Origin: Siphonodentalium dalli | Lineage: Eukaryota; Mollusca; Scaphopoda; Gadilida; Siphonodentaliidae | Direction: 5' to 3' | Length of the DNA: 64,000 nucleotides | Assembly: GCA_032622095.1 (NCBI GenBank) | Contig: CP136061.1 | Coordinates: forward strand, 234,420,944 to 234,484,943 | Part shown: one piece after another, positions 7,420 to 30,371 of the stretch | Layout: each line of letters starts with the position of its first letter | Numbering within the stretch: the first letter of the stretch is position 1 | Notes under the pieces: model-generated | Databases searched by the model: none | Told to the model about the DNA's origin: nothing | What the model saw: the letters and a program-made list of their open reading frames with translations, nothing else | Program-made: the position numbers and the translations under genes

Positions 7420-8020
7420 TATGCTCGATTCGAATTTTTTTGGAAATGTGGCAAATGACCCAAAATTCGTAAAGTGGCCATTTGGGCGGAATATTTTGGG
7501 CGAAACTTTCTTGAGTCGAGTTTGAAAAAAGTGGTCCGAAAAAGACTCGACCCTGTGCTCGGTCCGAATTTTTTTGGAAAATGTGGCAAATGACCACGGG
7601 ACGTACTTTGTAAAAAAAAAAACATTTGGTCCTAAATTTGGGTCAAAAAGTCCGAAAATGCCTCGAAATAAGCAAAGTCTGAAAATGAAGGGAAATTGGC
7701 TCGAATGAGTTCGGAATCGTAAGTGGCAAGCTGGGCGGAACATTTTGGTATAAATTTTTTTTGGGTCGAGTTTGAAAAGGTGGTTTGAAAAACACTCGAC
7801 CATGTGCTCGGCTCGAAATTTTTCGAAAATGTGGCAAATGACACGAAATTCGTAAGTGGCCAGGTATAGACTAACACGGGACGGGCGAAACATTTGAGGC
7901 CGAACAAGTTTTAGGTCGAGTTTTAAAAAGAAGTCCGAATATGATTAACGCGTACTTAGTAAAAAAACAACACAAATTTGGGCCTAAACAAATTTGGGTC
8001 AAAAAGTCCGAAATTGAACA
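7420..8020. repeat. Degenerate tandem repeat, three imperfect units
   Basis: Three blocks share phrases such as TGTGCTCG.TCGAA, GAAAATGTGGCAAATGAC, GGGCGGAACATTTTGG and GGGTCGAGTTTGAAAA. They begin near 7421, 7555 and 7804 and differ by insertions, so unit length runs from about 135 to 250 bp. Overlapping minus-strand frames across this block (for example one reading RAEHMVECFSNH) are by-products of the repeat and are not genes. Confidence 0.75.
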
Positions 8021-10416: not shown

Positions 10417-10551
10417 GTCGGTGAGTCAACCTCCTCATTCACAAGAGATTTTTTAAGCAACAGTAAACCAGGCCCGATTTGACATACAATCCGGGCCTGG
10501 TTTACTGTTGCTTAAAAAATCTCTTGTGAATGAGGAGGTTGACTCACCGAC
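10417..10551. repeat. Perfect 60-bp inverted repeat with 15-nt loop
   Basis: Bases 10417-10476 and 10492-10551 are exact reverse complements over all 60 positions, separated by 15 nt (10477-10491). The arms start GTCGGTGAGTC and end AGGCCCG at the loop. Nothing else in the window is an inverted repeat this exact, so it is either very young or kept intact. No gene is visible around it. Confidence 0.95.
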
Positions 10552-11570
10552 TTTAAATTACCAGATGAGTCATGTTTGATGGTAAATGTCCGATGATAAT
10601 ACTGTCGAGTAGTAACGATTCAGTAATAGCGAGGTTTCGAATATAGTTACGACGTTTAGCGTATAGCGTTATCAACTTAGTGCGACCAAATTTTAGATCG
10701 TAGGTGGGGAAATAACTGGTGGAGCACCCACTACGCATGCTCACAACAAGACCGCAGCAATATAGTAGCGATCAAGCAATGCTTGATTTTTACCAGAAAA
10801 ATCATGGCATGTCCTTGGCAACACGAGCAACCAACAAATTCAACCCATTGGACATCTTCAGGGGAGACACTTTTTATTGAGTTGAGGCAGGAAAAGGGGT
10901 GTTTAGTAGATAATGTTTGATAAGGTCTTCATATCTCTTTATTAAAAGATTATATAATGTTATGTGTTTGACAGTTCGACCATGTGTGCATGTGGTATTT
11001 ACTAGTACATGTACGCAGAGTGTGAATAGTTTAAATTTGACAAATGTTACCAGGTGTACTTGGTTCATTGTGTACATAATGACTGGGGTACAAGTAGTGC
11101 CCATTGTTATATGGTATCCAAGGAAATGAAAAAGATTTGATGTTATCATATTCACGAAAATGAGACCAGTTAATTATGAGAAATTATGCATTATGCAGAT
11201 GTGTTAAATAATCTCAGAGCAAGTACTCTGCTGATTAGTAGTTTTGATTTGAACAATATGTTGGTTAATTAAACAAAAGTTGTTTAATGAGTACTCAGTC
11301 AGTTTGTTTGTCTCCGTATGATCAATAAAGTGCCTTGCTTTCAAACAAGTTTGATTCAGTTAAAACTTTTCACAGTAAAAAATTGTCACAGAGTTTAAGT
11401 TATGTACATGTAACCTCAGTTCGAAGTTCTGGCCAGTTGGTACAACTTGTAGGATGTGGGTCCGCAAAGAACCAGAATTCTGAAATAATTATACCAGTAT
11501 ATGCTTGATTGTTGACTGTCATACCATTCTTCAATGTAATGATTCCTGAGTCATTTCTTCTGTTCTAGAG
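10552..11570. other. Non-coding stretch before LINE; possible LINE 5' leader
   Basis: No family-level similarity is visible. Frames at 10874-11155 (minus) and 10917-11129 (plus) overlap on opposite strands and carry no motif. The last few hundred bases may be the 5' leader of the LINE that starts at 11571, but I see no clear ORF1. Confidence 0.45.
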
Positions 11571-12605
11571 ATGTCTAATGTGCGAAATCTATGTATATTA
11601 TTATTGTTTGTATTCATATGCAATTTCCGTATACGAAATCAATGCCGTGCTAGCTCATCGTATCCCACCAAGTTTAAATATATGGAGAACATAACATTAA
11701 ATTTCCTTACCTGGAATTGTACGGGAATTATGTCATCGGGTGCATATATCACAGAATTAATGAGAAATGATCATTATGACATTATGGGTCTAAGTGAACA
11801 TTGGTTATACCAAAACAATGCAGATTTTCTCGGAATGCTGGGGTCAAATTATGAATATCATGCTGTCTGCGATTATAGCCAACAAGTTCCCATCCATACA
11901 ATAAAGCCAGGTAGACCCAAGGGCGGAGTGGCACTGATGTGGCACACCAGGCTTTCACACTGTATATGTCCACTTGATATTGCAGATGATCGCATCATCG
12001 GGATTCAATTAAAGATACCAGGTGGGAGTTATCTGTATATCTTTCAAGTTTACCTACCATCCACGAATTATCCCACTGAAGAATATATAGCATATATAAA
12101 TAAACTTAGAGATATATGCGATATATATAAAGTACACGGTAACCTCATCATAATGGGCGATCTGAATGTAAATTTCGATAAATCAGATAAGCGAAACTCA
12201 GCATTCATTAAATTTGTTAAAGGCCTTGAATTGAAATCCGCCAATTACGAGATATCGCCTCAATCTACATGTTTACCTTTTGGTCAGAGAGGCGACAATA
12301 TCGGCACAATAATTGACCATATATTGATACCCGATATATTCATACATTTTGTACGCAGTATTAAGATAATGGACGATAACTCTATAGATGTATCGAATCA
12401 TCGTCCAATATCCGCAAATATTTCTTTGCCCGAAAGTGATCCCACCATCGGAGGGCCAGATGCAAATGCTGATGGTGGGATCGACTGGAAGCGAGTGAGA
12501 TTTCACCCAGAAATCATCGAAGAGTATCAGAGATATCTTGATATTGAAATTATCAAAATAAAAAAAAACCGAGATCCCAATTTGTATCGCATTGACGCTG
12601 TATTA
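11571..12605 (+). pseudogene. AP-type endonuclease half of LINE ORF2
   Basis: The frame opens with ATG after a stop-rich leader and reads about 345 LINE residues before the insertion. Exonuclease/endonuclease/phosphatase-fold motifs appear in order: WNCTG at residues 48-52, SEHWL at 75-79 with the metal-binding Glu, GGVALMW at 118-124, MGDLNVNF at 195-202, IDHILIP at 248-254, and SNHRP at 275-279. The last motif is normally SDH; here the Asp is Asn, which should impair catalysis. The frame carries on for 25 codons into the inserted element before stopping at 12680, so the C-terminal tail of that frame is not LINE protein. The enzyme would nick target DNA to prime reverse transcription. Confidence 0.88.
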
Positions 12606-13739
12606 GTGGAGCGGACGGAACCGATTTCAGAAAGTTTAGTCCATCGGGACCACACACAAGCTTGTAATACATCATTTTGAAGGTTATGACATTTCGCATC
12701 GGGTAGGACCCGGTGTGAAATATACAGATGATGCAAAAGATGATTTTTAGCTGATTAAGTGCCAAAATTCAGCAAAAATCCCTGTTTTTGTAAAATTTGG
12801 CAAAATGAGAAATAAAAGTATAGAAACGCGAACATTTTGCGCTAAAATATTGTAGTCTACATACCTCTAGATATTTACTATGATAGTGGTACGATTTCTC
12901 TGATATAACGAAGATTGTTTTTAGATTTATTGTAAAAATAGACAAAACAGCGCAAATTTTCAATTTTTTTTGCCTCACTTAATGGGCGATAGATCAATAT
13001 TGTTTTAACCACTGTGTAGGAACTGTTACATCGGAAGTCGTTCTATCGCCGGTATTGTGATGGTTCTTGCCTGATTTGTTACGGTTCCTGATGATTGAAA
13101 ATAATCATTTTTGTGACAAAATCACGCATAATTATAGATATCTTGAATATATTAAACTTTCCTGAATGAACAGAGGCTGCAGAAGTGCCGTGTTATCGAA
13201 AATAACTCGGTATTAGCGAGTTAACGCGTAAATATCAACATGTTATCACTGAAAATCAAGCCAAGTGGACGCAATTTCTTTGTTTTTCGTGGCGTATAAA
13301 ATATGAAACGCATTCTGAAGACAAACACTGACTATAAAGTGTACCCGTGTTATTCTTTTGTAAAATAGCTGAGAAAGTATCCCGATAGGGGTTGATAATT
13401 GGGAGCTGTGACCTCGTAATCAACACGGGTGCGTGTTACGGTTCTATTTCAAACCGATCATGGCTGTGACAGTTCTGTCCATGATATTTATTCGAACGAT
13501 TTCTGCACTTGGGTCTGAAAATCGTCTTGTGTATCTGACATTTTAAAACAGATAATGACTGTAGCTTATGTAATTTGCATAATAGAACAGGTATATTAAG
13601 AAATAACACAATAAATACCTAATACGAGAGATTAAGTGACATTAATAGGCAGAAATACAATATTGAAAGTCCCGATGAGTATAGTATCATAATCATGCCC
13701 GCCTATATAAATGACCAATGGTAATACAAATCTACTCCC

Positions 13740-14810
13740 AGGACTGAGAATATAAGATGGTATATTCATTTACTGCCTGAGGGACATTTACTGCCTGAGG
13801 GACATTTACACATGTTTGTCGCCCAGACATGAATATAACTTATGAAATCACGTTCAACTGAATCATTGATAGGTTATGGCGTGATTGGGGTGGTTGGGGA
13901 CTTGGGGAGTGGGTGCTTAATTGGTGTCTATCCCTAACTTTGGTCAAAATGTTCAACAGTTACAAATTTCTTATCTTACAATAGATTGGTTTGAAAATTA
14001 ACACCAACAATATGTTGAAATTGTTCTCTTAATTTGATTTGACAACAATTTAATAGTGGGGATTTTGTCGTTTTTAGACTAACATTTGCATACTTTCCTA
14101 CACGTTAAACATGTAATCAACCATATTTGACATATACAAATGGACACCTCTTCTTTAGAGTTGATCAAAATCTCATGATGGGTGGACATGAAGTAGGGAG
14201 CATGTGTGATCTAGTTTTCTATATCACATTTACCCCCCCCCACCAATTGGCAAGAAACTGGTTTAATGGACAAATAATCTAATTCCATTTAATTAATATG
14301 CTTTGTATTAAATAATGTATGCTCTTTTGCAAAATAAATCATCTCTCTATCCATCTGTTGGGAACATTTCCAATATTGTGGGGGTGGGGGCGCCAGGTTG
14401 GAAACTTCCAACACTTGGGAATCTTGAAGCCAGTCTAGATGTTTTTTTTCAATTTTCAGGTTCAGATATCCACATTTTCTCACTGGGCCCATGTATCCTG
14501 AGTTTCTCCCCCGGTTTGCATGGTGGCCAATCAAAGGCTACTGATCAATTCACTTCAGAATGGTATATAATCTAGAGCTATAATGTGTCATGCAGTTGGG
14601 GAAAACCAAAGCCCAGGCCTTGTGCATGAGTTTGGTCTGTTTCAAGGGGATGGTGCCGTTGGAAATTCCAAGGTTGAGGCCCCAACATTGGATACCCTCC
14701 AACCCACGTCCCTGCTCACTTGACACGTTAGTATCGAGGAATAATAATGTGCCTTATAATAGCCAGGTTCAGACACCCATAACACTAATTTTTAATGATT
14801 CATTTGTATG
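13740..14810. other. Non-coding interior of nested TIR element
   Basis: The phrase TTTACTGCCTGAGGGACA is duplicated in tandem near 13768-13806. Around 14340-14680 there are GTTGGAAA...TTCCAA phrases that resemble the tandem repeat at 40.3-41.1 kb. Short open frames here (14289-14534 minus, 14315-14575 plus) face each other and carry no motif. Confidence 0.5.
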
Positions 14811-14836
14811 AATGTTTAGCTAATAATTATAACAAT

Positions 14837-15125
14837 CTGTTACTGCACGTTGAATTTAATAGCTGAGCATTCCTACAAATGAATCAATAGTATCCAAGTC
14901 GCTGCTCTTTATAGCACATTTAGTCACCAACGGATTAACATCCATATAATAATATTTGTAACTGCATGATTCTTTTCTCTTTTTTTTATATGTTACTGCT
15001 TGTTGAACTTAATAGCTAAGCATTCCTACAAATAAGATTCAAGTCAATTCTCATTACAGCGCATTTAGTAACCAAAGGTTTAACATCCATATAATAATAT
15101 TCGTAACTGTAGGATTCTTAGCTTT
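14837..15125. repeat. Two-unit tandem duplication (about 150 bp)
   Basis: Two consecutive units share TGTTACTGC.CGTTGAA, AGCATTCCTACAAAT, TTTAACATCCATATAATAATATT and GTAACTG. They start near 14837 and 14990. They lie inside the nested TIR element and show no coding potential. Confidence 0.75.
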
Positions 15126-15386
15126 TTTATATCTTCTATTAAAAAATCAGAGATCCCTAGTCAGTCTAAAATATGATTGAATGGAAGATTATCGTGCTAG
15201 TATATGCTTTAATAGCTGCATATTCTAGAATTCTAGAATTTAACATAGATAAGCATCCAGAAAACGGATGCCCGACATAAACTTCATAAACTGCGTAATC
15301 AGAACATTGTACTGGTGTCAACGAACTTTTAACGTCTTATTTTTGGCTTTTTGTTGAGTAAAATACGTCTACGAAAATAGACAACA

Positions 15387-15917
15387 CTAGCCGATGTGCC
15401 CCCTCTTCGCCCGGGCTATTTAGGGATTTTTTTGTGATCGTCTCCGCCTGGGAAAACTATTGTTCGATCGGCCCGGAAACATGCCTATATGAGCGAATAT
15501 GGTCAAGGTCAAGGACATGGTCGCACGTGAAATTGGACCCACACATATTGTTCCCGGGATCAAAGTAGGCCTACATTATATAGAAACATGCATATATGAG
15601 CGTATATGAGCGAGGTCAAGGTCAAGGACACGATCGCAAGTGAAATTGGACCCACCCATATTGTTCCCGTGATCAAAGTAGAACCAGCTACCAAATTTGA
15701 GTGGGATCGGTCGAGGTCCAGAAACATGCCTATATGAGCGCATTTGAGCGAGGTCAAGGTCAAGGACACGGACGAACGTGAAATTGGAACCGCCCATATT
15801 GTTCCCCGGATCAAAGTAGGCCTACATACCAAATTTGAGTCCGATCGGTCGAGCAGTTTTTCGAGTCTATAACACAAATACATACATACAGACAGAAGTT
15901 CCAAAATATATAATAGA
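15387..15917 (-). mobile_element. Non-autonomous Helitron, array copy 1 of 4
   Basis: Read on the minus strand, the element starts TC (15917) and ends CTAG (15387), flanked on the outside by T as Helitrons require. The GC-rich 3' hairpin is degenerate in this copy. The interior has about three units of a roughly 120-bp repeat with AAGGTCAAGG and GTGAAATTGGACCC. It abuts the next copy with no intervening base. Confidence 0.72.
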
Positions 15918-16821
15918 CTAGCCGATGAGCCCGACGTTGTCCGGGCTATTCAAAAACCAAATTTCAAGTCGATAGCTCTACCCAGCCCGACGTTGTCCGG
16001 GCTATTCGAAAACCAAATTTCAAGTCGATAGCTCTACCCGTTTCCGAGATCTGGTCTGCGCATGCGCAAAGTTGGCGTCGCACGGGCTCGGCGACCCGAT
16101 AAAATTCGTATCCGGGGCAAGATACATTCACATACCAAATTTCAAGTCGATAGCTCCACACGTTTCCGAGATATATATATTGCCCAATGTCATTTGCGTT
16201 TACCTCGGCCGGTGATGAGTTAACGCGACATCGGGCGGTTAAGAGTTAAACGCGATCACGTCACGATCTCTCGACGGCGTAATATATTTACGGAATGTTT
16301 TTCGATCACTGAAGCGTGGTCCTGCGTTCTTCCCAATAATTAAGGTCGAAACTTTAAACGGACACAGGCGTGTGATACATCGTTGGAAAGAGGAAGCGCC
16401 ACAGATTCTAATCGTGCAAACTATATGACTGGCAATTTATTATTCGCGCTATATCGAATCGATTTGTGAGCACCGAACTGAAATATATTAGCGCAAAACG
16501 GCGTAAAAACAGATTTGACCTCGGCACGTGAAAAGTTGATCTCGGATCTGAAATCTGATAAGCTCATATTGACCGCCTGCTCAAACTACATACACGTACC
16601 AAGTTTCGTCCAGATCGGTCGAGAATCTTCCGAGATCTGGTCTGCGCATGCGCGAAGCTGGCGTCGCACAGTCTCGCCAATACGACAACATCCACCGCCT
16701 GGTCAAACTACATACAAGTACCAAGTTTCGTCCCGATCGGTCGAGAATCGTAGATTTGTATCAATGACAGACAGACAAACATACAAACATACAAACAGAG
16801 GTCTTCAAAATATATATGAGA
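15918..16821 (-). mobile_element. Non-autonomous Helitron, array copy 2 of 4
   Basis: On the minus strand it begins TCTCATATATATTTTGAAG, followed by a (CTGT)-type tetranucleotide run, and ends with the hairpin CCCGGACAACGTCGGG, a 7-nt spacer and CTAG. The body includes the phrases AAATTTGGTATGTGAATG and GCGCATGCGCAGACC. The same body appears in the 27.6-28.3 kb and 29.5-30.4 kb copies in the opposite orientation. Confidence 0.82.
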
Positions 16822-17618
16822 CTAGCCGATGAGCCCAACGTTGTCCGGGCTATTCAAAAACCAAATTTCAAGTCGATAGCTCTACCCAACCCGACGTTGT
16901 CCGGGCTATTCAAAAACCAAATTTCAAGTCGATAGCTCCACCCGTTTCCGAGATCTGGTCTGCACATGCGCGAAGCTGGCGTCGCACGGGCTCGCCAATA
17001 CGACAACGTCGACCGCCTGGTCAAACTACAGAGACGTGCCAAGTTTCGTCCCGACCGACACAATTGGTATCCGGGGCAAGATACATTCACATACCAAATT
17101 TCAAGTCGATAGCTCCACCCGTTTCCGAGATCTCGTCTGCGCATGCGGGAAGCTGGCGTCGCACGGGCTCGGCGACCCGATAAATTCGTATCCGGGGCAA
17201 GATACATTCACATACCAAATTTCAAGTCGATAGCTCCACCCGTTTCCGAGATCTCGTCTGCGCATGCGCGAAGCTGGCGTCGCACGGGCTCGCCAATACG
17301 ACAACGTCGACCGCCTGGTCAAACTACAGAGACGTGCCAAGTTTCGTCCCGACCGACACAATTGGTATCCGGGGCAAGATACATTCACATACCAAATTTC
17401 AAGTCGATAGCTCCACCCGTTTCCGAGATCTCGTCTGCGCATGCGGGAAACTGGCGTCGCACGGGCTCGCCAATACGACAATGACCACCGTCTGGTCAAA
17501 CTACACACACGTACCAAGTTTCGTCCCGATCGGTCGAGAATCGTAGATTTGTATTAATGTCAGACACACAGACAAACAGACAGACAGACATACAGAGGTC
17601 TTCAAAATATATATGAGA
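16822..17618 (-). mobile_element. Non-autonomous Helitron, array copy 3 of 4
   Basis: It has the same terminal structure as its neighbours: TC at 17618, hairpin and CTAG at 16822-16825 on the minus strand. Internally a unit of roughly 150-190 bp built on the GCGCATGCGC and CTTGAAATTTGGTATGTG phrases repeats several times. Overlapping frames across it on both strands are repeat artefacts. Confidence 0.82.
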
Positions 17619-18116
17619 CTAGCCGATGAGCCCGACGTTGTCCGGGCTATTCAAAAACCAAATTTCAAGTCGATAGCCCTACCCGTTTCCGAGATCTGGT
17701 CTGCGCATGCACGAAGCTGGCGTCGCATGGGCTCGGCGACCCGATAAAATTCGTATCCGGGGCAAGATACATTCACATACCAAATTTCAAGTCGATAGCT
17801 CCACCCTTTTCCGAGATCTCGTCTGCGCATGCGCGAAGCTGGCGTCGCACGGGCTCGGCGACCCGATAAAATTCGTATACGGGGCAAGATACATTCACAT
17901 AGCAAATTTCAAGTCGATAGCTCCACCCGTTTCCGAGATCTCGTCTGCGCATGCGCGAAGCGGGCGCCGCACGGGCTCGCCAATACGACAACGCCGACCG
18001 CCTGGTCAAACTACACGCACGTACTAAGTTTCGTCCCGATCGGTCGAGAATCGTAGATTTGTATAAATGACAGACAGACAAACATACAAACAGAGGTCTT
18101 CAAAATATATATGAGA
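17619..18116 (-). mobile_element. Non-autonomous Helitron, array copy 4 of 4
   Basis: This copy is the 5'-most of the array in element orientation. Its TC end at 18116 is followed on the plus strand by T, i.e. A on the element strand, so the whole array sits in a single A/T target. The 3' hairpin and CTAG at 17619-17622 join directly to copy 3. Confidence 0.82.
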
Positions 18117-18672
18117 TAAAATACAAGACAGATAACTCTATATATCACGTCTACGCTCACGCTTTACGAAGTCCAGCGCAATGAAATTTCACTATTGTAA
18201 CCGGCTGTTGACTCATGGAAATGTCGGGCCTTCAAAACGCGTTATTATTCAAACTAGCTGGCGACTTTGTGAATTTTGATAGGCGTAGCACAGCTTATTG
18301 GATAAGCATAGAAAGGCAGTGTAATTCATCGAAATTAATGACAAGTGGTGCAAATTTCAACTTAATGCATAGTTTGTTGTGTTTATCTTTGTATACTTTC
18401 ACAAAATTGGCAGTTTGAACCATGTACCATGGCAAATATTAGCCATATTTTTACCCGTATAGAACGATTAAATGGGGAGAGAACCGACTCGATCAGGAGA
18501 GAACCCAAACAATTATCAAAATTCGCTGTTTTTGTCGTTGTTATGACTCGCACAATGAAAGTTTCGTTATTAACACGCTCATTGGTGCCACATATTGTGA
18601 TGGGATCGAAAATAACCAATCCAATTATCACCTAGATGCCTCAAAATTGCGTTTTAACAAGTCGTGAAAATG
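18117..18672. other. Non-coding interior of nested element, right side
   Basis: About 550 bp between the Helitron array and the right TIR. Two opposing short frames (18383-18631 minus and 18429-18635 plus) overlap and carry no motif. I see nothing else. Confidence 0.5.
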
Positions 18673-18775
18673 TATAATTTCGATCAGCAAGAACCGTCAC
18701 AAATCAGTCAAGAACCATCACAAACCGGCGATAGAACGACTTCCGATGTAACAGTTCCTACACGGTGGTTTTAAC

Positions 18776-20092
18776 CAAGGATATCGTATATAGTCTAGAA
18801 AAGTGCGGATATATATACCGCATACGACAGTATGCTGAATATGTCATCATATTTAATACGTGATTTGTTATGTAAGATTATTTCACCCCTCACCCCAAAA
18901 TTCAGCAAAAAGTCACTGTTTTAGTGAAATTCGGCACAAATGAATACAAAAGCACAGGTATTCGGGTAAGTTTGTGCTACGATATAGCAGGTTACACACT
19001 TATAAATACAAAGTAATGAAATGTCATGATTGCGGTGATAGATGTAAAACTTTCTTAAATTTTCGTGGAAAATAGACAAAAAATAATTCATTTTCAGTTG
19101 TTTCGCCCCTCTTAATAGGCGAATATTCAGTATTGCATTGAATGGAGATCCCGTATATAATATAGAAACTTGTGGAAATATACACTGCATATGACTATAA
19201 GATAAGGGTGTCATTCTTTGCCAAATATGATATGTGGTGGTAGATTGTGTCACCCCACCCCAAAATTCAGAAGAAACAAAATCAGTTTTAGAAATTTCGT
19301 TATCGCAGAATACAAAAGCACAACTCCGATTATTTTGTGCTATTATATTGAAGTCTACCCACTTCGAGATATACATTATGATAACGTCATGGTATCATTT
19401 ACAGATGGCAACATTTCGGAGTTTTCTGATGAAAGTAGACCGAAAATCGTGAAATATAAACTTGTTTTGTCCCTCTACATGGGTGATAATTCAATTCCAA
19501 TTTGAACAATAATCCAGGATAAACTCTCAAGAGTTGACGAGACACATAACGCATATGAATGTTTTCGGATTGTATCATCTTCTGTCGCATTTGTTTGGTT
19601 ACGTTATTGCACCCATCTCCCAACAATACAATACATTAAAAGAGGAGACAAACACGGAATATTTCTATACACATTTATGCATTATACACATATCTTATCA
19701 AGCTGAGGCGTTTGATAGTTACTTCAGTTGAAAAAATTACACCATTGTATATGTTTACTTCGCATAATATAGCTTCACAGTTGTATAACATTATACGTAT
19801 TGGGAGGTTTAGTGATTGTTAATAAACAGGTTCAGCCACAGTACATGTAACTTGTAACGTGTGTTGCCATTACCAACGAAATCATCTGACTCACATGACC
19901 ATTCGGCTTGCGCGTACACCATCAACCAACCGTTCAGACGTTTTGTGTCAAATGTGCAGCATTGCGAAATGTGCATCAGAGGGGTGTCCAATCTTTATAT
20001 CAATCGACGAACATGTGCTTAGTGAACTTTTGTTAAATTCTTCAGCAGCGGTGACCACGCCGTTAATTTTCCCAAATGGGTTGTTGGTACGA
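18776..20092 (+). repeat. Left arm (inner part) of the long-TIR element
   Basis: This segment is the reverse complement of 22806-24125, with mainly point differences and small indels. Shared landmarks are the TATATATACCGCATACGA block, CACCCCAAAATTCAG repeated twice, and AAATGGGTTGTTGGTACGA at the inner edge. Paired open frames of similar sequence on the two arms (for example 19218-19505 plus and 23386-23664 minus) simply reflect the duplication. Confidence 0.88.
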
Positions 20093-20900
20093 CTTCCTTT
20101 ACATACCATAGGTCGTCTGCACCATGGAACCGATGGAAGCCAAAGTTTGTTTGTATCTGGGTGCAGAAATGTTCTCAAATGCGGTCGCATAGCCGACTCT
20201 TCTTCGATACACATATAGGGTTTTTAGCGACCAATGGGCATGAACTACACACGAGACGGCACAGCCATTAAGGTGAGCTGGCGATCTCACCACATATATT
20301 CGTGGCTCAATCCTGCAAGTTGAGCCAAGGGATCGTGTTTGGAATGAACCCGCAGCCACAAGGGACTTGATGTTCCCCCATGGCTGACACTTCCCTTTAA
20401 TCATATAATAGAATATTTGTTTTACATCAACAGTACTGTACAAACAGTATATAAACTGTATTTATGTGGCTCTCCTATCTGGTAGTCATCATCCACGACT
20501 TTGCCCTATGGGGACCTTCCCACAATATTTGGGGTTTTAATGCGTCACGACATTCCTGGTCACAGCCATCAAATCATCAAACCTTGTCATCAACCTTGCG
20601 ATGTTCTTTAATTCTATCTATCGTCCTTGAACCCCCCTTGGGGTACCATGGCGCCGTTTCTGGGTTGGGCCATATCTCTTGGAATATGATGAGGAACAGA
20701 TTCTGTAATATCTCCAAGGCCTTGGTCATTACATGTCGAATTTCTCTGACCATGTATGTCTGCCAATGTGTCAGGAAGAATATATTTCTCCTGTGCATTT
20801 GGTTTCACTTCAGGATAGGGTGGTTTTTGTTCAGCTCTTTGAAACTCATCCCCATTGTTTGTGGTAGCAGAAACTACTGCTGTATTGCCATGTGATCATA
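20093..20900. other. Core of long-TIR element, unassigned part
   Basis: Frames on the minus strand (20577-20808) read segments such as QEKYILPDTLADIHGQRN but match nothing I can name. They may be the decayed continuation of the gypsy element next door. No LTR pair is visible. Confidence 0.45.
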
Positions 20901-21189
20901 GAGACCCATAATATTCGTGAATATCCAGACCTTCCAGGAGTCACATATGGCATATTCTGCCAATATATGTGTTCTCTTCCATAGCTGGTGCCTGATCCGT
21001 GCTGCTTATCGCGGTATAAGTGGGCTCGTGATCCTCAGTTTCAATAGTTCCAATTCCTTCTGGGGAATTTGTGTTGGTGTGCTCTGACAAGTGACGAGAA
21101 GATACTATCTCTGGCAGAGTTTCCGATGAGTTAGATGATACACCTCGGTATGCCTTATTCGTTTCGTTGGACTCAATGATCAGCAGGTC

Positions 21190-22310
21190 ATCATTTATGT
21201 AGCATATGGTGTTTATCTTCCGATAAGTAGTCATACAGTTTCTTTGAGAGCATGGAAACTGTTGACCCAGTACCAAGCAGAAACATCACTGGCTGCCCAC
21301 AGAGATTGCAATCTAAATACAGCCCCCTCTTCAGAAGAGCTGTATCTAACAAACTCGTTGGAGTTACGATGTCCACTTGTGTTCTGCTCGTCTCCCCTAC
21401 CACGGTAGGCATTATGACACATGTCGCGTGGATTGTGAGAAGTTCTGCATCTGGTGCGTTCTTTGTATTCGTTTGTGTTATAATCAGGATTATCATTATA
21501 ATTATGTCTCCACTGTCTATCGTCACGACAGTCCCTCCAGGACTCATTTGTGTTACTCTTTTTCTCCTTGTTTTGGTTCTCCAAGTTTGTCATTCTTTGT
21601 TAATCTCCCCTTTACACCTCTTCACATCAGTCAATATTTGTTTTATCTCCTTCATCTCAGAGATGGACTGTGATGTCTGGGACGGTTGTGAGCTATTTTG
21701 AGTTTTCCCATTAGAACCTCTTTGGGGCTTCAGTTCATCTCTTATCTTTTTGAGTTCTTCAAACTCTATAGTTTTGCTTTGTGTTGGGTCTGCTTCATTT
21801 ACTGCCCTAGCATAGTGTTTAGCCCTATGTTTTTCAGACTTGACAAAAGCCTCTAATTCAACTGTATGTCTTATGCTCTCACCAAGAGATAGCCCAGTCG
21901 TGCTTGTTGTACCATGAGCCGTATATCTGGATCATACAACCCACCAATGAATTGGTCCTTTGCCAAGGTGTCTCTCAATTCATGTGTTGCAGTATGATAT
22001 AACATATTGGTCAGACGTCGGTAACTCCCCCCTGCCCTTTGTCGTCGTGCACGCAATTGTACGATCTGGTCAGTCTGGTTTTTTGGCAGCAAATCGGCCT
22101 TCTATCGCACCAACAAGAACTGTGTATTCTTCCTCTCGTCCTGGGAGTAGGTCACCGAGTGTTCCTTGCGCTAATTATCTCAAGGATGCGCCTAGATAAA
22201 GGCCCATGTCATCAATTTCCAATCCATTTATATTGGAACAAATTTCAAAGTGTGCTTGGTAATCTAACCATGATCTTGTGCCATCATAGCTATCTGGTGT
22301 GACAAATTGT
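21190..22310 (-). pseudogene. Ty3/gypsy gag-protease remnant
   Basis: On the minus strand from about 22310 the translation reads PDSYDGTRSWLDYQAHFEIC, the conserved start of a gypsy Gag core, then DMGLYLGASLR, a stop codon, REEEYTVLVGAIEGRF, LRARRQRAGGSYRRLT and LAKDQFIGGLYDPDIRLMVQ. A Lys/Glu-rich linker follows. The retropepsin region near 21270-21310 reads CGQPVMFLLGTGSTVSML; the active-site DTG is GTG, so the protease is dead. No reverse transcriptase or integrase follows, and no LTRs are seen. It lies in the centre of the long-TIR element, either captured or inserted. Confidence 0.82.
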
Positions 22311-22805
22311 TTCCAGAAAAAATTCGGTTCGGGTGGTATTTAGTGCAATGCATTACAATGCATGCATACCGTAAATTATTATTTGCTGTGTTGGCAATTG
22401 ACAGCTTACGCATAATAACCTATTGCATGCATGAATTACGCATATGGTGCTACAGGTACATCACTAGAATATGTGTTCTTTCAATCAGTTGTCGATTTCA
22501 ATAGCTGTAGTTACCATTACGGATTCGAGAAACCCAAGTATATGGGCACGCGAGTTTTGCACGCATTCATCTAGTGTACAACTAACAATATTTATCATGT
22601 AAACAACAAAATTAAATACAAACATAACTATATCACAATACTGTGCGTGGCAAGAAGGTTGAATGCAATGAACGGCACTATTTTCTCCCAAATGGACTCG
22701 CAGTCGTCACTTCTGTAAAAATGTGTTTAGACCGCACGAAACACATACGCTTACTATAAGCTATACTTGTAATTCTTATATGTATAGTACTACTATAATA
22801 GTAGT
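22311..22805. other. Core of long-TIR element, right non-coding part
   Basis: About 500 bp of AT-rich sequence with direct and inverted copies of TGCATGCAT near 22345-22430. The phrase at 22690-22725 resembles the arm of the 8169-9744 TIR element. A small palindrome TAGTACTACTATAATAGTA sits at 22784-22803, against the arm boundary. Confidence 0.5.
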
Positions 22806-24535
22806 TCGTACCAACAACCCATTTGGGAAAAGTAACGGCGTGGTCACCGCTGCTGAATAATTTAACAAACGTTCACTAAGCACAGGTTCGTCGATTGATA
22901 TAAAAATTGGACACCCCTCTGATACACATTTCACAATGCTGCACATTTGACACAAAACGTCTAAACGGTTGTTTGATGGTGTACGTGTAAGCGGAATGGT
23001 CATGTGAGTCAGGTGGTTTCGTTGGTAATGGCAACACACGTTACAAGTTACATGTACTGTGGCTGAACCTGGTTATTAACAATCACTAAACCTCCCAATA
23101 CGTATAATGTTATACAACTGTGAAGCTATATTATGCGAAGTAAACATTTACAATGATGTAATTTCTTCAACTCAAGTAACTATCAAACGCCCAGCTTGAT
23201 AAGGTATGTGTATAATGCATAAATGTGTAGAGGAATATTCCGTGTTGATCTAATCTTGCAATGTATTGTATTGTTGGGGCGATGGGTGCAATAACGCAAC
23301 CAAACAAATGTGACAGAAGATGATACAATCCGAAAACATTCATATGCATTATGTGTCTCCTCAACTCTTGAGAGTTTGTCCTGGATTATTGTTCAAAATG
23401 GAATTGAATTGTCACCCATGTAGAGGGGCAAACAAGTTTATATTTCACGATTTTCGGTCTACTTTCATCATAAAACTCCGAACTGTTGCCATCTGTAAAT
23501 GATACCATGGCGTTATCATAATGTATATCTCGAAGTGGGTAGAGTTCAATATAATAGCACAAAATAATCGGAGTTGTGCTTTTGTATTCTGCCATAACGA
23601 AATTTCTAAAACTGATTTTGTCTCTTCTGAATTTTGGGGTGGGGGTGACACAATCTACCACCACATATCATATATGGCAAAGAATGACATCCTTATCCTA
23701 AAAACATATGCAGTATATATTTCCACAAGTTTCTATATTATATACGGGATCTCCGTTCAATGCAATACTGAATAAACGCCTATTAAGAGGGGCGAAACAA
23801 CTGAAAATGAATTATTTTTTGTCTATTTTCCACGTAAATTTAAGAAAGTTTTACATCTATCACCGCAATCATGGCATTTCATTACTTTGTATTTGTAAGT
23901 GTGTAACCTGCTATATCGTAGCACGAACATATCCCGAATACCTGTGGTTTTGTATTCATTTGTGCCGAATTTCCCTAAAACGGTGACTTTTTGCTGAATT
24001 TTGGGGTGAGGGGTGAAATAATCTTACATAACACGTCACGTGTTAAATGTGATGACATATTCAGCATACTATCGTATGCGGTATATATATCCGCACTTTT
24101 CTAGACTATATACGATATCTTGGTCAAAAAATATTGATCTATCGCCCATTAAGTGAGGCAAAAAAATTGTAAAATTACGCTGTTTTGTCTATTTTTACAA
24201 TAAATCTAAAACAAATCTTCGTTATATCAGAGAAATCGTACCACTATCATAGTAAATATCTACAGGTATATAGACTACAATATGTTAGCGCAAAATGTTC
24301 GCGTTTTTATACTTTTATTTCTCATTTTGCCGAATTTTACAAAAACAGGGATTTTTGCTGAATTTTGGCATTTAATCAGCTAAAAATCATGTTTTGCTTC
24401 ATTGGTATATTTCACACCGGGTCCTACCCGATGCGGAATGTCATAACCTTCAAAATGATGTATCACAAGCCCGTGTGTGGTGCCGATGGACTAAACTCCT
24501 ACTTCTAGTGAGCTTTTTGAGTTTGTCCGCTCTAC
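22806..24535 (-). repeat. Right arm of the long-TIR element
   Basis: This uninterrupted arm gives the original order: inner part 22806-24125 pairs with 18776-20092, and the outer part 24125-24535 pairs with 12606-13009. It shows the pre-insertion state of the site where the 5.76-kb element landed in the left arm (ATTTTTTGACCAAGATATC here versus the GTTTTAAC duplication there). Confidence 0.88.
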
Positions 24536-24537
24536 TA

Positions 24538-27110
24538 TATGTAGATACGCAGAAATCGTACAGGCTATTGCAAACGCATCGGCTGCGTGTCTTCCTCGTA
24601 AACGTTTCAAACGTAATCATAAACCCTTCTGGAATGATGAGTTAAAAGCGTTACACGAACAAATGCGGGCATATCGGAGAAAATGGATAGAGTCGATTTC
24701 GGAACTTATGTTGAATATAAAGAAGCCAAATGCAATTTTCGTAGGCTCTATAGGAGAGCATCCCATAACCACATGAGAGAAGTGGTAAACGAAATAGATG
24801 AACGCGCTGAGGTGGATCAAGATTACATTTTCCGCATGTTAAACGCGGAACAAAAAAATTTACTCGCTAACAAAAATCCATTTTTCGTGCACAATGGAAC
24901 TGTTCTTCGTGAGGAATCGGAAATAACTGAAGGTTGGGCGAAATACTTCGAAAATCTGTACTCGCCGTTATATCAACCGAGCTTTGACTCAGAACAATTT
25001 AACCGTATTAATTTTTTTGTTGACCGAGAAGTGACCAATACAAGTGAAAGTAAAATTGACAAGAATATCATATTCCCGAACAGAGAGCGAACTGGGTGAT
25101 GTTTGTCGAAATCTTGATCGCGGTAAAGCTGCAGGGTGGGATCTCATCGCAAACGAACATATTATATATGGTGGCCCTGTGTTAATCCATGCGGTGTCAG
25201 ACCTGCTTACTGATGTTATTACAGAACAAACAGTCCCTGATCGTATGAAGCACGGTGTTATTATCACTTTATATAAAGGAGGCTCCAAACCAAAAACAGA
25301 TTACGACAGTTATAGAGCCATCACTTTGATGCCTGTACTTTACAAAATACTTGAAAAAATAATCCAGATTCGATTAGAGCGATATACACCATACTTACTC
25401 GAAGTTAACCCATTGCAGCACGGATTCCAAAAAGGAATAAGTGCTAACATGACCTCCTACTTGATGAGAGAATGCATTTCATACGTATCCGAAAGCTAAA
25501 CAAATTTGTATTCGTGTTTCCTTGATGTTTGAAGGCCTTTGACACCGTCTGGGTAAATGGTCTATTGTATAAACTTTACGAACGCGGGGTGCAGGGACAT
25601 TTGTTCATATTATTATACAACCTTTTGACAAATGTATCATGTTCAGTTCGATACCAACATACTTCATCTCAGTGGTTTAATGTATTACAGGGAGCTAGAC
25701 AAGGAATATATACTGTCGCCGTTTTACTATATGATTTACGTAGATGAATTGATCAACCAATTAGCCAGCGCATGATATGGACTACAAATGTTGGGCATAA
25801 ATTGCACCAGCCCAACACACGCGGACGATATGGTGTTACTGTCTCTCAGTAAAAAGGGTTTACAAAAACTTTGTGAAATATGCGTATCTTACAGCAACAC
25901 ATGGAGGTACAGATATAACCCAAATAAATGCTGTATAATTGTTTTTAATGAGAAAAAAGTAAATTATACTCGTCAAAATCGCGCATGGAATCTAGGGGAA
26001 TCTCAGATCAGGGAGGATACGCGAACAACTCATTTGGGGTTACCACTCGATAAATACGATTGCAACGGTGCCTTCGTTGAAAATATTTGCGAAAAAAATA
26101 AAAGTACGTTTATGATGCTCACAAATGCTGGTGTTCATCCGGGTGGTATAACTCCAAAGAGCTGTTCGATTATCTACTCGTCTGTGGTACTTCCGAGGGG
26201 GTTGTACGGTTCTGAATTACTTTGGAATTTGTCTCAGAATAACCGTGATCGTCTGGAAAGAACACATCGATTTTGCGTTAAATTTGTCCAGGGTCTATAT
26301 ACACGCACAAAGACAGAAATAGCACTTGGGCTAGTCGGTCTTCCTCCACTCATGTCTTTAATCGATAAACGCACACTCTCATTATTTGGCTCGCTTTGTA
26401 ATCTGTCGCTAAACAAAACTGTTAAAGCTGTTTTCTTAACCCGTTTGTGTCAATATGTCGTGGGGTGTTCAGAGATAAGCGATAAAACATTCATAGCTGA
26501 CATTATTACAACACTCCAGAAATATAACATGGTCGACTACCTGATCACTTTTATTGATTTACACGAATTCCCGAATAAACTAGCATGGCAAAATGTATTG
26601 AAAGACAAATGGAAAATCGGGTGTTCTGAAGAGTGGACAGCAATTATAAATGGCGACAATAGACTTGCTCGGTTCGCTGCCATACAACCAGAATTAACCA
26701 TGTCTCACCTTTGGGGAAAATGTCGATGCTTCCCAAAATATTAATCATCGTACACGCTTGTTGCCCGCCTTATGGCTATGTTACCTGGTGAGAAACAGGT
26801 ATGTCCTCTCTGCGGCCACGAACACAGCGACGTTGTTAAACATACCATATGCGAATGCACGTCAATAACGTCGGAGAGGAACCTTGTAGAATTCGACATT
26901 TTGAACATATTTGATATAGAATTCTACCTAAAGTTTGACAAACTGAGTCCAGAATCTAAAACTCGAATTTTTCTTTCTGGATTATCAGATTTCATGACGA
27001 TTCCACTTGAATATACGGAGGACCCAATTAATTTTGTTGTTAAAAAGTCTGCTGATCTATGGAAACGCTACGTTGACCTAATAACTTTATCTGAGAATGC
27101 GACGAATTAA
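24538..27110 (+). pseudogene. Linker, reverse transcriptase and zinc motif of LINE ORF2
   Basis: The reading sense resumes with CRYAEIVQAIANAS and PRKRFKRNHKPFWNDELK, a typical endonuclease-RT linker. RT blocks follow in several frames: GKAAGWD (about 25125), PDRMKHGVIITLYKGG and YRAITLMPVLYKILEK (25240-25360), FLDV then, after a frameshift with stop, KAFDTVW near 25535, the RQG box at about 25695, and the catalytic HADDMVLLS at about 25820. Thumb sequence runs to 26744. After one more shift, CPLCGHEHSDVVKHTICEC (about 26800-26860) gives a C-terminal zinc motif. Frame breaks near 25090, 25499, 25747 and 26744 show it is dead. Confidence 0.87.
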
Positions 27111-27605: not shown

Positions 27606-28297
27606 TCTATTATATATTTTGGAAGATCTGTCTGTGTATCTGTGGTCTGTGTATCTGTGGTCTGTGTGTTCGCGATGAACTCGAAAACGGCCGACCCGAT
27701 TTCGATGAAACTTCTTATGTGAGGGTACAATCGGTCGGGAAGTGGCATAGGCATATTAATTTTCAGATCCGATGTCAACTTTTCACGTGCCGAGGTCAAA
27801 TCTGTTTTTACGCCGTTTTGCGCTAATATATTTAAGTTCGGTGCCGGTCATATAATTTGCACGGTTAGAATCTGTGGCGCTTCATCTTTCCAATGATGTA
27901 TCACACGCCTGTGTACGTTTAAAGTTTCTACCTTAATTATCGGGAAGAACGCAGGACCATGCTTCGCTCATCGAAAAACATTCAGTAAATATATTACGCC
28001 GTCAACAGATCGTGACATGATCGCGTTTAACTCTTAACCGGCCGATGTCGCGTTAACTCATCACCGACCGAGGTATCCGCAAATGACATTGGGCTATATA
28101 TCTCGGAAACTGGTGGAGCTATCGACTTGAAATTTGGTATGTGAATGTATCTTGCCCCGGATACGAATTTTATCGGGTCGCCGAGCACGTGCGACGCCAG
28201 CTTCGCGCATGCGCAGACCAGATCTCGAAAACGGGTGGAGCTATCGACTTGAAATTTGGTTTTTGAATAGCCCGGACGAAGTCGGGTCACCTTCTAG
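27606..28297 (+). mobile_element. Non-autonomous Helitron, plus array copy 1 of 3
   Basis: The element starts A/TCTATTATATATTTTGGAAG, has a (CTGTGT)-type microsatellite, and ends with the bulged hairpin CCCGGACGAAGTCGGG, TCACCTT and CTAG at 28294-28297. Hairpin plus 11-nt terminal segment, TC start and CTRR end are the Helitron hallmarks. The interior matches the body of minus-array copy 2. Confidence 0.85.
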
Positions 28298-28749
28298 TCT
28301 ATTATATATTTTGGAAGATCTGTGTGTGTGTGTGTCTGTGTGTCTGTCTGTAATCGATGGACTCGAAAACGGCCTAGCCGATTTCGATGAAACTTGGTAT
28401 GTGGGTGTATTTTCGGCCAGGGAGTGACATGGGCCTATTAATTTGCCCGTGCGACGTGACCTTGACCTTGAAATCGGGTAATTTCAAGGTCAAACGCCCG
28501 AATATCACGGGATTTCGATGAAACTTGGTATGTGGGGGTATCTTCGGCCGGGGAGTGGCATAAACCTATTAATTTGCCCGTGCGACGTGGCCTTGACCTT
28601 GAAATCGGGTCATTTCAAGGTCAAACGCTTGTCGGGTACTTTTGTCCGGGCAGTGTTTTGGACTGGTCAAATCGTGACCCCACTTGACCTTGACCTTCAA
28701 AATGGACAATTCAAGGTCAAAGCCCGGACGATGTCGGGTCACCTTCTAG
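28298..28749 (+). mobile_element. Non-autonomous Helitron, plus array copy 2 of 3
   Basis: It begins TCTATTATATATTTTGG immediately after the CTAG of copy 1 and ends with hairpin, TCACCTT and CTAG at 28746-28749. The interior differs: it is built of units with GATGAAACTTGGTATGTGGG and inverted pairs of TGACCTTGA and TCAAGGTCA. So the family shares ends but swaps its cargo. Confidence 0.85.
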
Positions 28750-29335
28750 TCTATTATATATTTTTGGAAGATCTGTCTGTCTGTGTGTCTGTGTGTTCGC
28801 GATGAACTCGAAAACGGCCGGGCCGATTTCGATGAAACTTGGTATTTGAGGGTATTTTCGGCCGGGAACGGGCATAGGCCTATTAATTTGCCCGTGCGAC
28901 GTGACATTGACCTTGAAATCGGGTCATTTCAAGGTCAAACGCCCGAATATCACGGGATTTCGATGAAACTTGGTATGTGGGGGTACTTTGGTATGGGGAG
29001 TCTCATAAGCATATTCATTTGCCCGTGCGACGTGACCTTGACCTTGAAATCTGGTCACTTCAAGGTCAAATCGCCAATTTTGATGAGATTTTGACGAAAT
29101 TTTATACATAGGGTTACTTTTGTTCACTGGGTGTTTTGGACGGGTCAAATCGTGACCCCGACCTGATCTTGACCTTCAAAATGATAAATTCAAGGTCAAA
29201 TTGGGTAAAACGGATGGATTTCGACGGGCACGTTTGTCCGGTACTTTTGTCCGGGCAGTGTTTTGGACTGGTCAAATCGTGACCCCATTTTGACCTTGAC
29301 CTTCAAAATGGACAATTCAAGGTCAAAGCCCGGAC
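28444..29335. promoter_or_regulatory. Cluster of TCAAGGTCA extended nuclear-receptor half-sites
   Basis: At least a dozen TCAAGGTCA or TGACCTTGA nonamers lie in about 900 bp, many as facing pairs separated by about 10 nt. TCAAGGTCA is the known extended half-site for ERR, SF-1/FTZ-F1 type receptors. The sites come with the Helitron interior. Whether any receptor binds here is inference. Confidence 0.45.
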
Positions 29336-29355
29336 GAAGTCGGGTCACCTTCTAG
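28750..29355 (+). mobile_element. Non-autonomous Helitron, plus array copy 3 of 3
   Basis: It joins directly to copy 2 and ends CTAG at 29352-29355, followed by T, which closes a single A/T target for the three-copy array. The interior carries further TGACCTTGA/TCAAGGTCA pairs. The frame at 28783-29094 is an effect of these repeats and has no motif. Confidence 0.85.
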
Positions 29356-29527: not shown

Positions 29528-29528
<1 letters not shown>

Positions 29529-30371
29529 CTATTATATATTTTGAAAGATCTGTGTGTGTGTGTGTTTGAAATCGATGGACTCCAAAACGACTAAGCCAAT
29601 TTCGATGAAATTTGGTATTTTAGGGTATTTTCGGCCGGAGACGAACATAGGCATATTTATTTGTCCGTGCGAGGTCAACTTTTCACGTGCGGAGGTCAAA
29701 TCTATTTTTACGCCGTTTTTGCGCTAATATATTTCAGTTCGGTGCTCACAAATCGATTCGATATAGCGCGAATAATAAATTGCCAGTCATATAATTTGCA
29801 CGGTTAGAATCTGTGTGGCTTCATCTTTCCAACGATATATAATATGTATGTATCCGTTTTAGTTATCTGCCTCAATTATTAGGTACAAGTGGTACGATGC
29901 TTTTATCAGGATAAAATCAATGCGTAATTTCTATGACGTCGTCAGAGGTCATAAAGTTAGATTACGTTAACTCTCACCCTGCCGATGCATTTGACTGTGT
30001 CGCGTTAACTCATCACCGGCCGAGGTATCCGCAAATGACATTGGGCTATATATCTCTGAAACGGGTGTAGCTATCGACTTGAAATTTGGTATGTGAATGT
30101 ATCTTGCCCCGGATACGAATTTTATCGGGTCGCCGAGCACGTGCGACGCCAGCTTCGCGCATGCGCAGACGAGATCTCGGAAACGGGTTGAGATATTGAC
30201 TTTAAATTTGGTATGTGAATGTATCTTGCCCCGGATACGAATTTTATCGGGTCGCCGAGCACGTGCGACACCAGCTTCGCGCATGCGCAGACCAGATCTA
30301 GGAAACGGGTGGAGCAATCGACTTGAAATTTGGTTTTTTAATAGCCCGGACGAAGTCGGGTCACCTTCTAG
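29528..30371 (+). mobile_element. Non-autonomous Helitron, single plus copy
   Basis: It starts A/TCTATTATATATTTTGAAAG within the TA microsatellite and ends with the CCCGGACGAAGTCGGG hairpin and CTAG at 30368-30371, followed by T. The body has two tandem copies of the AAATTTGGTATGTGAATG-GCGCATGCGC unit. It is longer than the 27606 copy but clearly homologous. Confidence 0.85.

Follow-up and report, generated by a model that had tools for sequence, protein, structure and literature searches.

Head-to-tail arrays of Helitron-like elements in this genome grow serially, in the reading that we favour and to which we give a probability of roughly 0.6, with each element inserted at the 5' end of a resident one and in a fixed orientation. 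The joints within these arrays are exact to the base, the units that they connect are unlike, the orientation is fixed in the counted set, and units of one subfamily, which we call type A, usually precede those of another, type B. We describe these features for the window, by which we mean the whole stretch of 64,000 nucleotides that was analysed, and then for the genome as a whole, before we weigh the mechanisms that could account for them.

The first array lies on the minus strand at 15387-18116, where four units (in the 5' to 3' order E4, E3, E2 and E1; Table 1), each starting with TC and ending with CTAG, follow one another with zero bases between them. All three internal joints read CTAG/TC, and the outer bases on this strand are an A at 18117 and a T at 15386. 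A preliminary description of this DNA had reported an exact, gapless head-to-tail array of TC/CTAG elements with a single outer A/T pair around the four units, and both statements are confirmed. The same description spoke of four copies, which alignment of the units does not support: their lengths and interiors differ and one of them is of another subfamily. E2, E3 and E4 have common ends, TCTCATATAT...CTCATCGGCTAG, which define type A, and different interiors, and both the 5' end and the interior of E1 are unlike theirs. Array 1 is thus four elements and not four copies of one. When the window was searched with the joint pattern CTAGTCTNNTATATATTTTG, allowing up to 3 mismatches, six matches were found against 0.11 expected, a number that none of 100 shuffles reached. 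Five of these are true joints (three in array 1 and two in the second array described below), and the sixth, at 18101-18120, is the outer boundary of array 1 and not a joint.

Table 1. Elements of the two arrays, the lone copy and the transposon that surrounds array 1
Feature	Positions	Strand	Description	Basis
E4	17619..18116	-	type A Helitron-like element, 498 bp, 5'-most in array 1	ends and joints
E3	16822..17618	-	type A element, 797 bp	ends and joints
E2	15918..16821	-	type A element, 904 bp	ends and joints
E1	15387..15917	-	element of another subfamily, 5' TCTATTATAT, 3' CACATCGGCTAG, 531 bp, 3'-most in array 1	
M1	27606..28297	+	type B element, 692 bp, first in array 2	
M2	28298..28749	+	type B element, 452 bp	
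M3	28750..29355	+	type B element, 606 bp, last in array 2	
S5	29528..30371	+	lone type B element, 844 bp, within (TA)n run	
hAT-like element	13010..18767	.	holds array 1, 5,758 bp	inverted ends and 8-bp duplication
Duplication, left copy	13002..13009	.	8 bp, GTTTTAAC	
Duplication, right copy	18768..18775	.	8 bp, GTTTTAAC	

A second exact head-to-tail array, absent from the preliminary description, occupies 27606-29355 on the plus strand and consists of three unlike units. These units, M1, M2 and M3, and the lone copy S5 carry the type B ends TCTATTATAT...TCACCTTCTAG, and the outer boundaries of array 2 and of S5 are again A and T. Over its 3' 75 bp, M1 matches the separate copy S5 at 71 of 75 positions, compared with 44 of 70 for its neighbour M2 and 46 of 70 for M3. 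Canonical Helitron ends (5' TC, 3' CTRR) are found in all eight units of the window, each with both ends present as TC...CTAG, and the Helitron-like ends proposed earlier are thereby borne out. Array 1, array 2 and S5 each lie between an A and a T with no target duplication, as is canonical for Helitron insertion; the sites at these three outer boundaries are filled ones, and no empty site was found. When the last 35 nt of each of the eight units were folded as DNA, a 3' hairpin with a 6-bp stem was obtained in E2-E4, modestly better than in shuffles (z -1.0 to -1.9), whereas the 4-bp stems were no better than shuffles in E1 (z +0.37) or in M1-M3 and S5 (z -0.07 to -0.34). Judged from their sequence, the elements of the window conform to what is canonical for Helitrons in ends and target site.

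Searching the genome (2.23 Gb in 9 contigs) for CTAG/TC junctions, a check that the preliminary description had called for, showed that such joints are abundant. The exact 24-base type A 5' end occurs in 16,033 copies, and a 31-base form in which CTAG directly precedes this end occurs 7,828 times, so that about half of all exact type A 5' ends stand right behind a CTAG; control patterns for both searches gave 0 matches. In a hand count of the bases before the type A 5' match at 30 loci, some of them overlapping, we found a host A in 17 cases, CTAG in nine, CTA in three and T in one. A variant joint, CTA/TC, in which the final G is missing, recurs at L035 (3906 and 4532), L039 (4008, minus strand) and L057 (1810 and 3239), and such joints follow A-type as well as B-type 3' ends. 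Joints can also be dense: within about 21 kb at G000:C1:31736875-31757840 there are at least 23 CTAG/TCTC joints on one strand, with partly repeated spacing patterns. In viral_contigs, neither of two 5'-end patterns had a match. A bacterial record (L001) gave one match of 20 bases, which was taken as chance since the elements match there over only 15-17 bases.

The orientation of neighbours was equally uniform. Head-to-head joints, whether between two type A ends or between A and B, numbered 0 genome-wide, although the patterns used for them were shorter and less strict than the joint pattern. The weight of these zeros is lessened by the fact that inverted joints, A/B joints included, are near-palindromes and may be unstable or misassembled. 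Among the first 100 listed 5' ends, neighbours less than 2 kb apart lay on the same strand in 35 of 35 pairs, whereas pairs more than 50 kb apart were divided into 29 on the same and 18 on opposite strands.

Under random order, transitions from A to B and from B to A are expected to be equal. Genome-wide, TCTATT starts stand behind type A 3' ends in 3,038 cases, and type A starts stand behind the 3' ends of B or C in 485; both are raw counts in which repeated blocks were left in, with the first 100 places of each listed. The B/C 3' pattern, CACCTK, matches 16 of 20 listed TCTATT-start units, a coverage that would lower the B-before-A count about 1.25-fold and not sixfold. Since the two kinds of transition can differ by at most one within any array of two types, the excess of 3,038 over 485 implies that A units are as a rule the upstream ones. 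A hand tally of the joints in sampled loci, which had been chosen because they carry the type A 5' end in its exact form and are therefore not random for other types, gave A followed by non-A at 14 loci and a non-A end followed by A at five joints, namely in L031, L049 and L057 and twice in L055, in units with an A-type 5' end. Taken by itself, this bias in the sampled loci is not significant (p 0.06). For this tally, most of the 309 rows were false matches inside units and were set aside by eye, the repeated blocks of L034 were counted once, and TCTCCT-like starts in otherwise A-like units were scored as A.

How closely the units of an array are related was assessed on 57 units of type A, taken from the window and from 27 fetched loci, which makes 28 sources. 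For 43 of them the source also holds a further type A unit, and the best match over the full length lay inside the unit's own source in only five of these cases and elsewhere in 38. With permuted labels the mean was 1.8 same-source matches, and five or more were reached in 116 of 2000 permutations; two of the five observed cases are identical 427-bp units of L034, which belong to a block repeated at 2405 bp. Array neighbours are thus little or no closer kin than units from other loci. Likewise, where an A unit is followed by a TCTATT-start unit, the pair of lengths differs at all 10 loci at which it could be measured (the window, L029, L032-L034, L036, L040, L042, L045 and L055), which argues that the arrays are not one composite that was multiplied. 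Divergence from the reference, determined over about 117 terminal or near-terminal bases in 33 units of 10 arrays, rose downstream in 9 of 23 adjacent A/A pairs, fell in 5 and was tied in 9 (9 vs 5, p 0.42), which falls short of the clear downstream rise that layered growth would lead one to expect. The ends of B units were not more degraded than those of A units, with means of 0.08 of 29 nt (n=12) and 0.45 of 30 nt (n=47), respectively, in sets that are both biased to good ends, since the annotator asks for conserved ends, and of which the B set counts the L034 block more than once. The A-before-B order could therefore reflect targeting and not age, and a one-way targeting preference could also produce it.

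The gapless joint itself is compatible with separate insertion events. The preliminary description had reasoned that every insertion, if independent, requires an A/T site of its own, an argument that fails because a resident element, which begins with T, forms a new A/T site together with the host A before it, as set out for maize in PMC2267711. Insertion at this front end yields a gapless CTAG/TC joint, and a single outer A/T pair consequently does not exclude independent insertion. PMC2267711 deals with the maize r1 region, where unlike Helitrons adjoin, and lists canonical insertion at the host A plus the resident 5' T as one option; it also reports the opposite argument from work on bats, by which elements inserted independently ought to be separated by an A, and this is the argument that the preliminary description makes. 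Whether tandem Helitrons form as rolling-circle copies or by consecutive insertion is disputed (PMC2267711, PMC5876387, PMC5148889).

Serial insertion, the most economical reading, could proceed as follows. A resident Helitron keeps the host A before its TC, so its 5' boundary is again an A/T site. A presumed rolling-circle transposase that starts at the 5' end, as in the published model in which rolling-circle replication begins there (PMC12628747), would use the resident 5' end as a landing site and place the newcomer between A and TC on the same strand, giving a gapless CTAG/TC joint in fixed orientation. The newest unit would then stand at the 5' end of the array, if the serial order in time that we infer is right. 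The landing site is probably the transposase's own strand-specific nick at A/TC, of which the expected footprints are seen. As the A/T dinucleotide is symmetric, a lock on orientation would not be expected from it, but such a nick would provide one. The evidence for serial insertion is the unlike lengths or subfamilies of units in both arrays of the window, the greater similarity of M1 to S5 than to its neighbours, the joints at 7,828 of 16,033 type A ends, the uniform orientation, the A-before-B order, the length pairs that differ between loci, the kinship of most array members to units elsewhere, and the failure of simulated random insertion to build such arrays. An intermediate, that is, the same site with and without an upstream unit, was not seen among the loci examined. 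Also against it are the B-before-A joints, the variant joint CTA/TC and the five same-source best matches, a number above the permuted mean of 1.8. A broader version, in which each resident Helitron presents its front end as a preferred strand-specific landing site to other Helitrons, probably through the transposase nick at A/TC, is offered tentatively, and we consider it somewhat doubtful. If it were true, the place of a unit in the layers of an array would tell when it arrived relative to the others, and the history of subfamily activity could be read from thousands of loci.

A different possibility, which we regard as unlikely, is that during transposition the 3' end of one element becomes linked in trans, by the transposase, to the 5' end of a different element, so that a mixed multimer arises and enters an A/T site in a single insertion. 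Mixed multimers would account for the exact joints, the single orientation, the unlike units and the one outer A/T pair, but on their own they do not predict the order of 3,038 vs 485, unless one end is the better acceptor.

Arrays, once formed, might also move or multiply as units, either because a transposition that begins at the first 5' end passes over inner 3' ends or because unequal crossing-over multiplies blocks. The identical units and the repeated block of L034 favour this process. So do units at 853-2842 of L055 that have an A-type 5' end and different, other-type 3' ends (GGCTAAACTGCTAG, GGCTAACCTGCTAG), as expected if inner 3' ends are skipped. Regular series of B/C-before-A joints point the same way: at G000:C1:188850288-188868830 there are at least 17 of them, with spacings mostly of about 1.06 and 1.19 kb, and another series lies at C2:103714342-103747259, both apparently satellite-like higher-order arrays built from Helitron units. 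Spread of this kind cannot create unlike arrays in the first place, however, and the length pairs of A and B/C units differ at 10 of 10 loci. We consequently judge it improbable as an explanation in its own right and treat it as a secondary process that adds numbers in places, an addition to serial insertion rather than a full alternative.

Rolling-circle read-through, in which a circle made from a single template is copied repeatedly and the concatemer is inserted once, was the first of two origins suggested in the preliminary description and is how the tandem Helitrons of bats and plants have been interpreted (PMC2267711, PMC5876387). It would give gapless, exact joints and one outer A/T pair. 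A single-template concatemer requires near-identical units, though, and the units found here are unlike in length and subfamily, with the closest kin in the same locus for only 5 of 43 and elsewhere for the rest; even for E2-E4 alone, which belong to a common subfamily, a large later change of the interiors would be needed. On the strength of the unit differences and the kin test we reject it, and give it very little credence. Of the earlier interpretation as a whole, then, the ends, the joining, the outer A/T site and the nesting have held, whereas the argument from separate A/T sites and the read-through have not. Chance, that is, unbiased A/T insertion with some sites falling at element boundaries, can formally produce a CTAG/TC joint (PMC2267711), but it predicts both orientations, of which the inverted one was found in 0 cases (A/A, A/B), and it is rejected as next to impossible because none of 400 simulated runs under any of four nulls, including nulls that restricted insertion to the inside of existing elements or to within 10 bp of them, reached five head-to-tail joints (maximum 2).

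Head-to-tail Helitrons, unlike pairs included, are already known (PMC2267711, PMC5876387, PMC5148889, PMC12628747). The maize r1 pair likewise has a gapless CTAG/TC joint between unlike Helitrons, yet it is one pair, whereas the present genome offers thousands of joints together with counts of orientation and order. The maize line data in PMC2267711 left the order open; some lines have the left element only, for which the 5'-insertion option would need a later excision of the other element. In Myotis lucifugus, tandem Helitrons have similarly perfect head-to-tail joints (Pritham and Feschotte, via PMC2267711) and were taken as tandem repeats, unlike the dissimilar units in biased order seen here. 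Tandem arrays of truncated Helitrons are known from plants (Xiong et al. 2016, via PMC12628747), but many of those have several 5' ends and one 3' end, whereas all eight units of our window are two-ended. Metarhizium acridum, with three tandem copies, is a single fungal case (PMC5148889). Insertion of Helitrons near other Helitrons (Yang and Bennetzen 2009, cited in PMC12477314) and the formation of transposon dimers through insertion-site preference (McGurk and Barbash, cited in PMC12628747) resemble serial insertion in that self-targeting is the source of neighbours or tandems, but the accessible parts of PMC12477314 and PMC12628747 contain no mention of base-exact, orientation-locked joining at 5' ends as found here.

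Less ordinary in the present genome are the extent of joining, in which roughly every second exact type A end takes part, the zero counts for inverted joints, and the order. A search of titles and abstract openings, a weak one given that subscription literature lay mostly outside it, found no genome-wide counts of orientation or order of Helitron joints. A genome in which a single 5' end sequence takes part in 7,828 exact joints, with none found inverted and a strong order bias, makes the question of how such arrays form countable. If serial polar insertion is true, gapless head-to-tail joints alone are no proof of rolling-circle concatemers, the order within arrays would serve as a relative clock for transposon families, and dispersed transposons would have a simple way of turning into satellite-like arrays.

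Array 1 is itself nested in another transposon, a claim of the preliminary description that holds: the element at 13010-18767 has inverted repeats and is flanked by the duplication GTTTTAAC. Its inverted arms of about 100 nt, within 13002-13111 and 18667-18775, are 94% and 86% complementary, and with an 8-bp target duplication as well as terminal inverted repeats, both of which are hAT features, the element looks like a hAT transposon by its sequence. It interrupts the left arm of a larger element at about 12930-24200, as is apparent from flanks on both sides that continue in the other arm. This larger element, the ends of which are given only as far as they could be read, has inverted arms of more than 1 kb (18899-20092 vs 22806-24000). 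Elsewhere in the window, a piece of a non-LTR retrotransposon with an endonuclease domain lies at 11550-12680, and another at 24641-27110 has reverse transcriptase matches, under the curated cut-off, in two ORFs. These come from a Pfam comparison of 7 of the 30 listed ORFs, all 7 of which lie outside 13010-18767. A near-perfect inverted repeat of 65 nt with a 5-nt spacer is present at 10417-10551.
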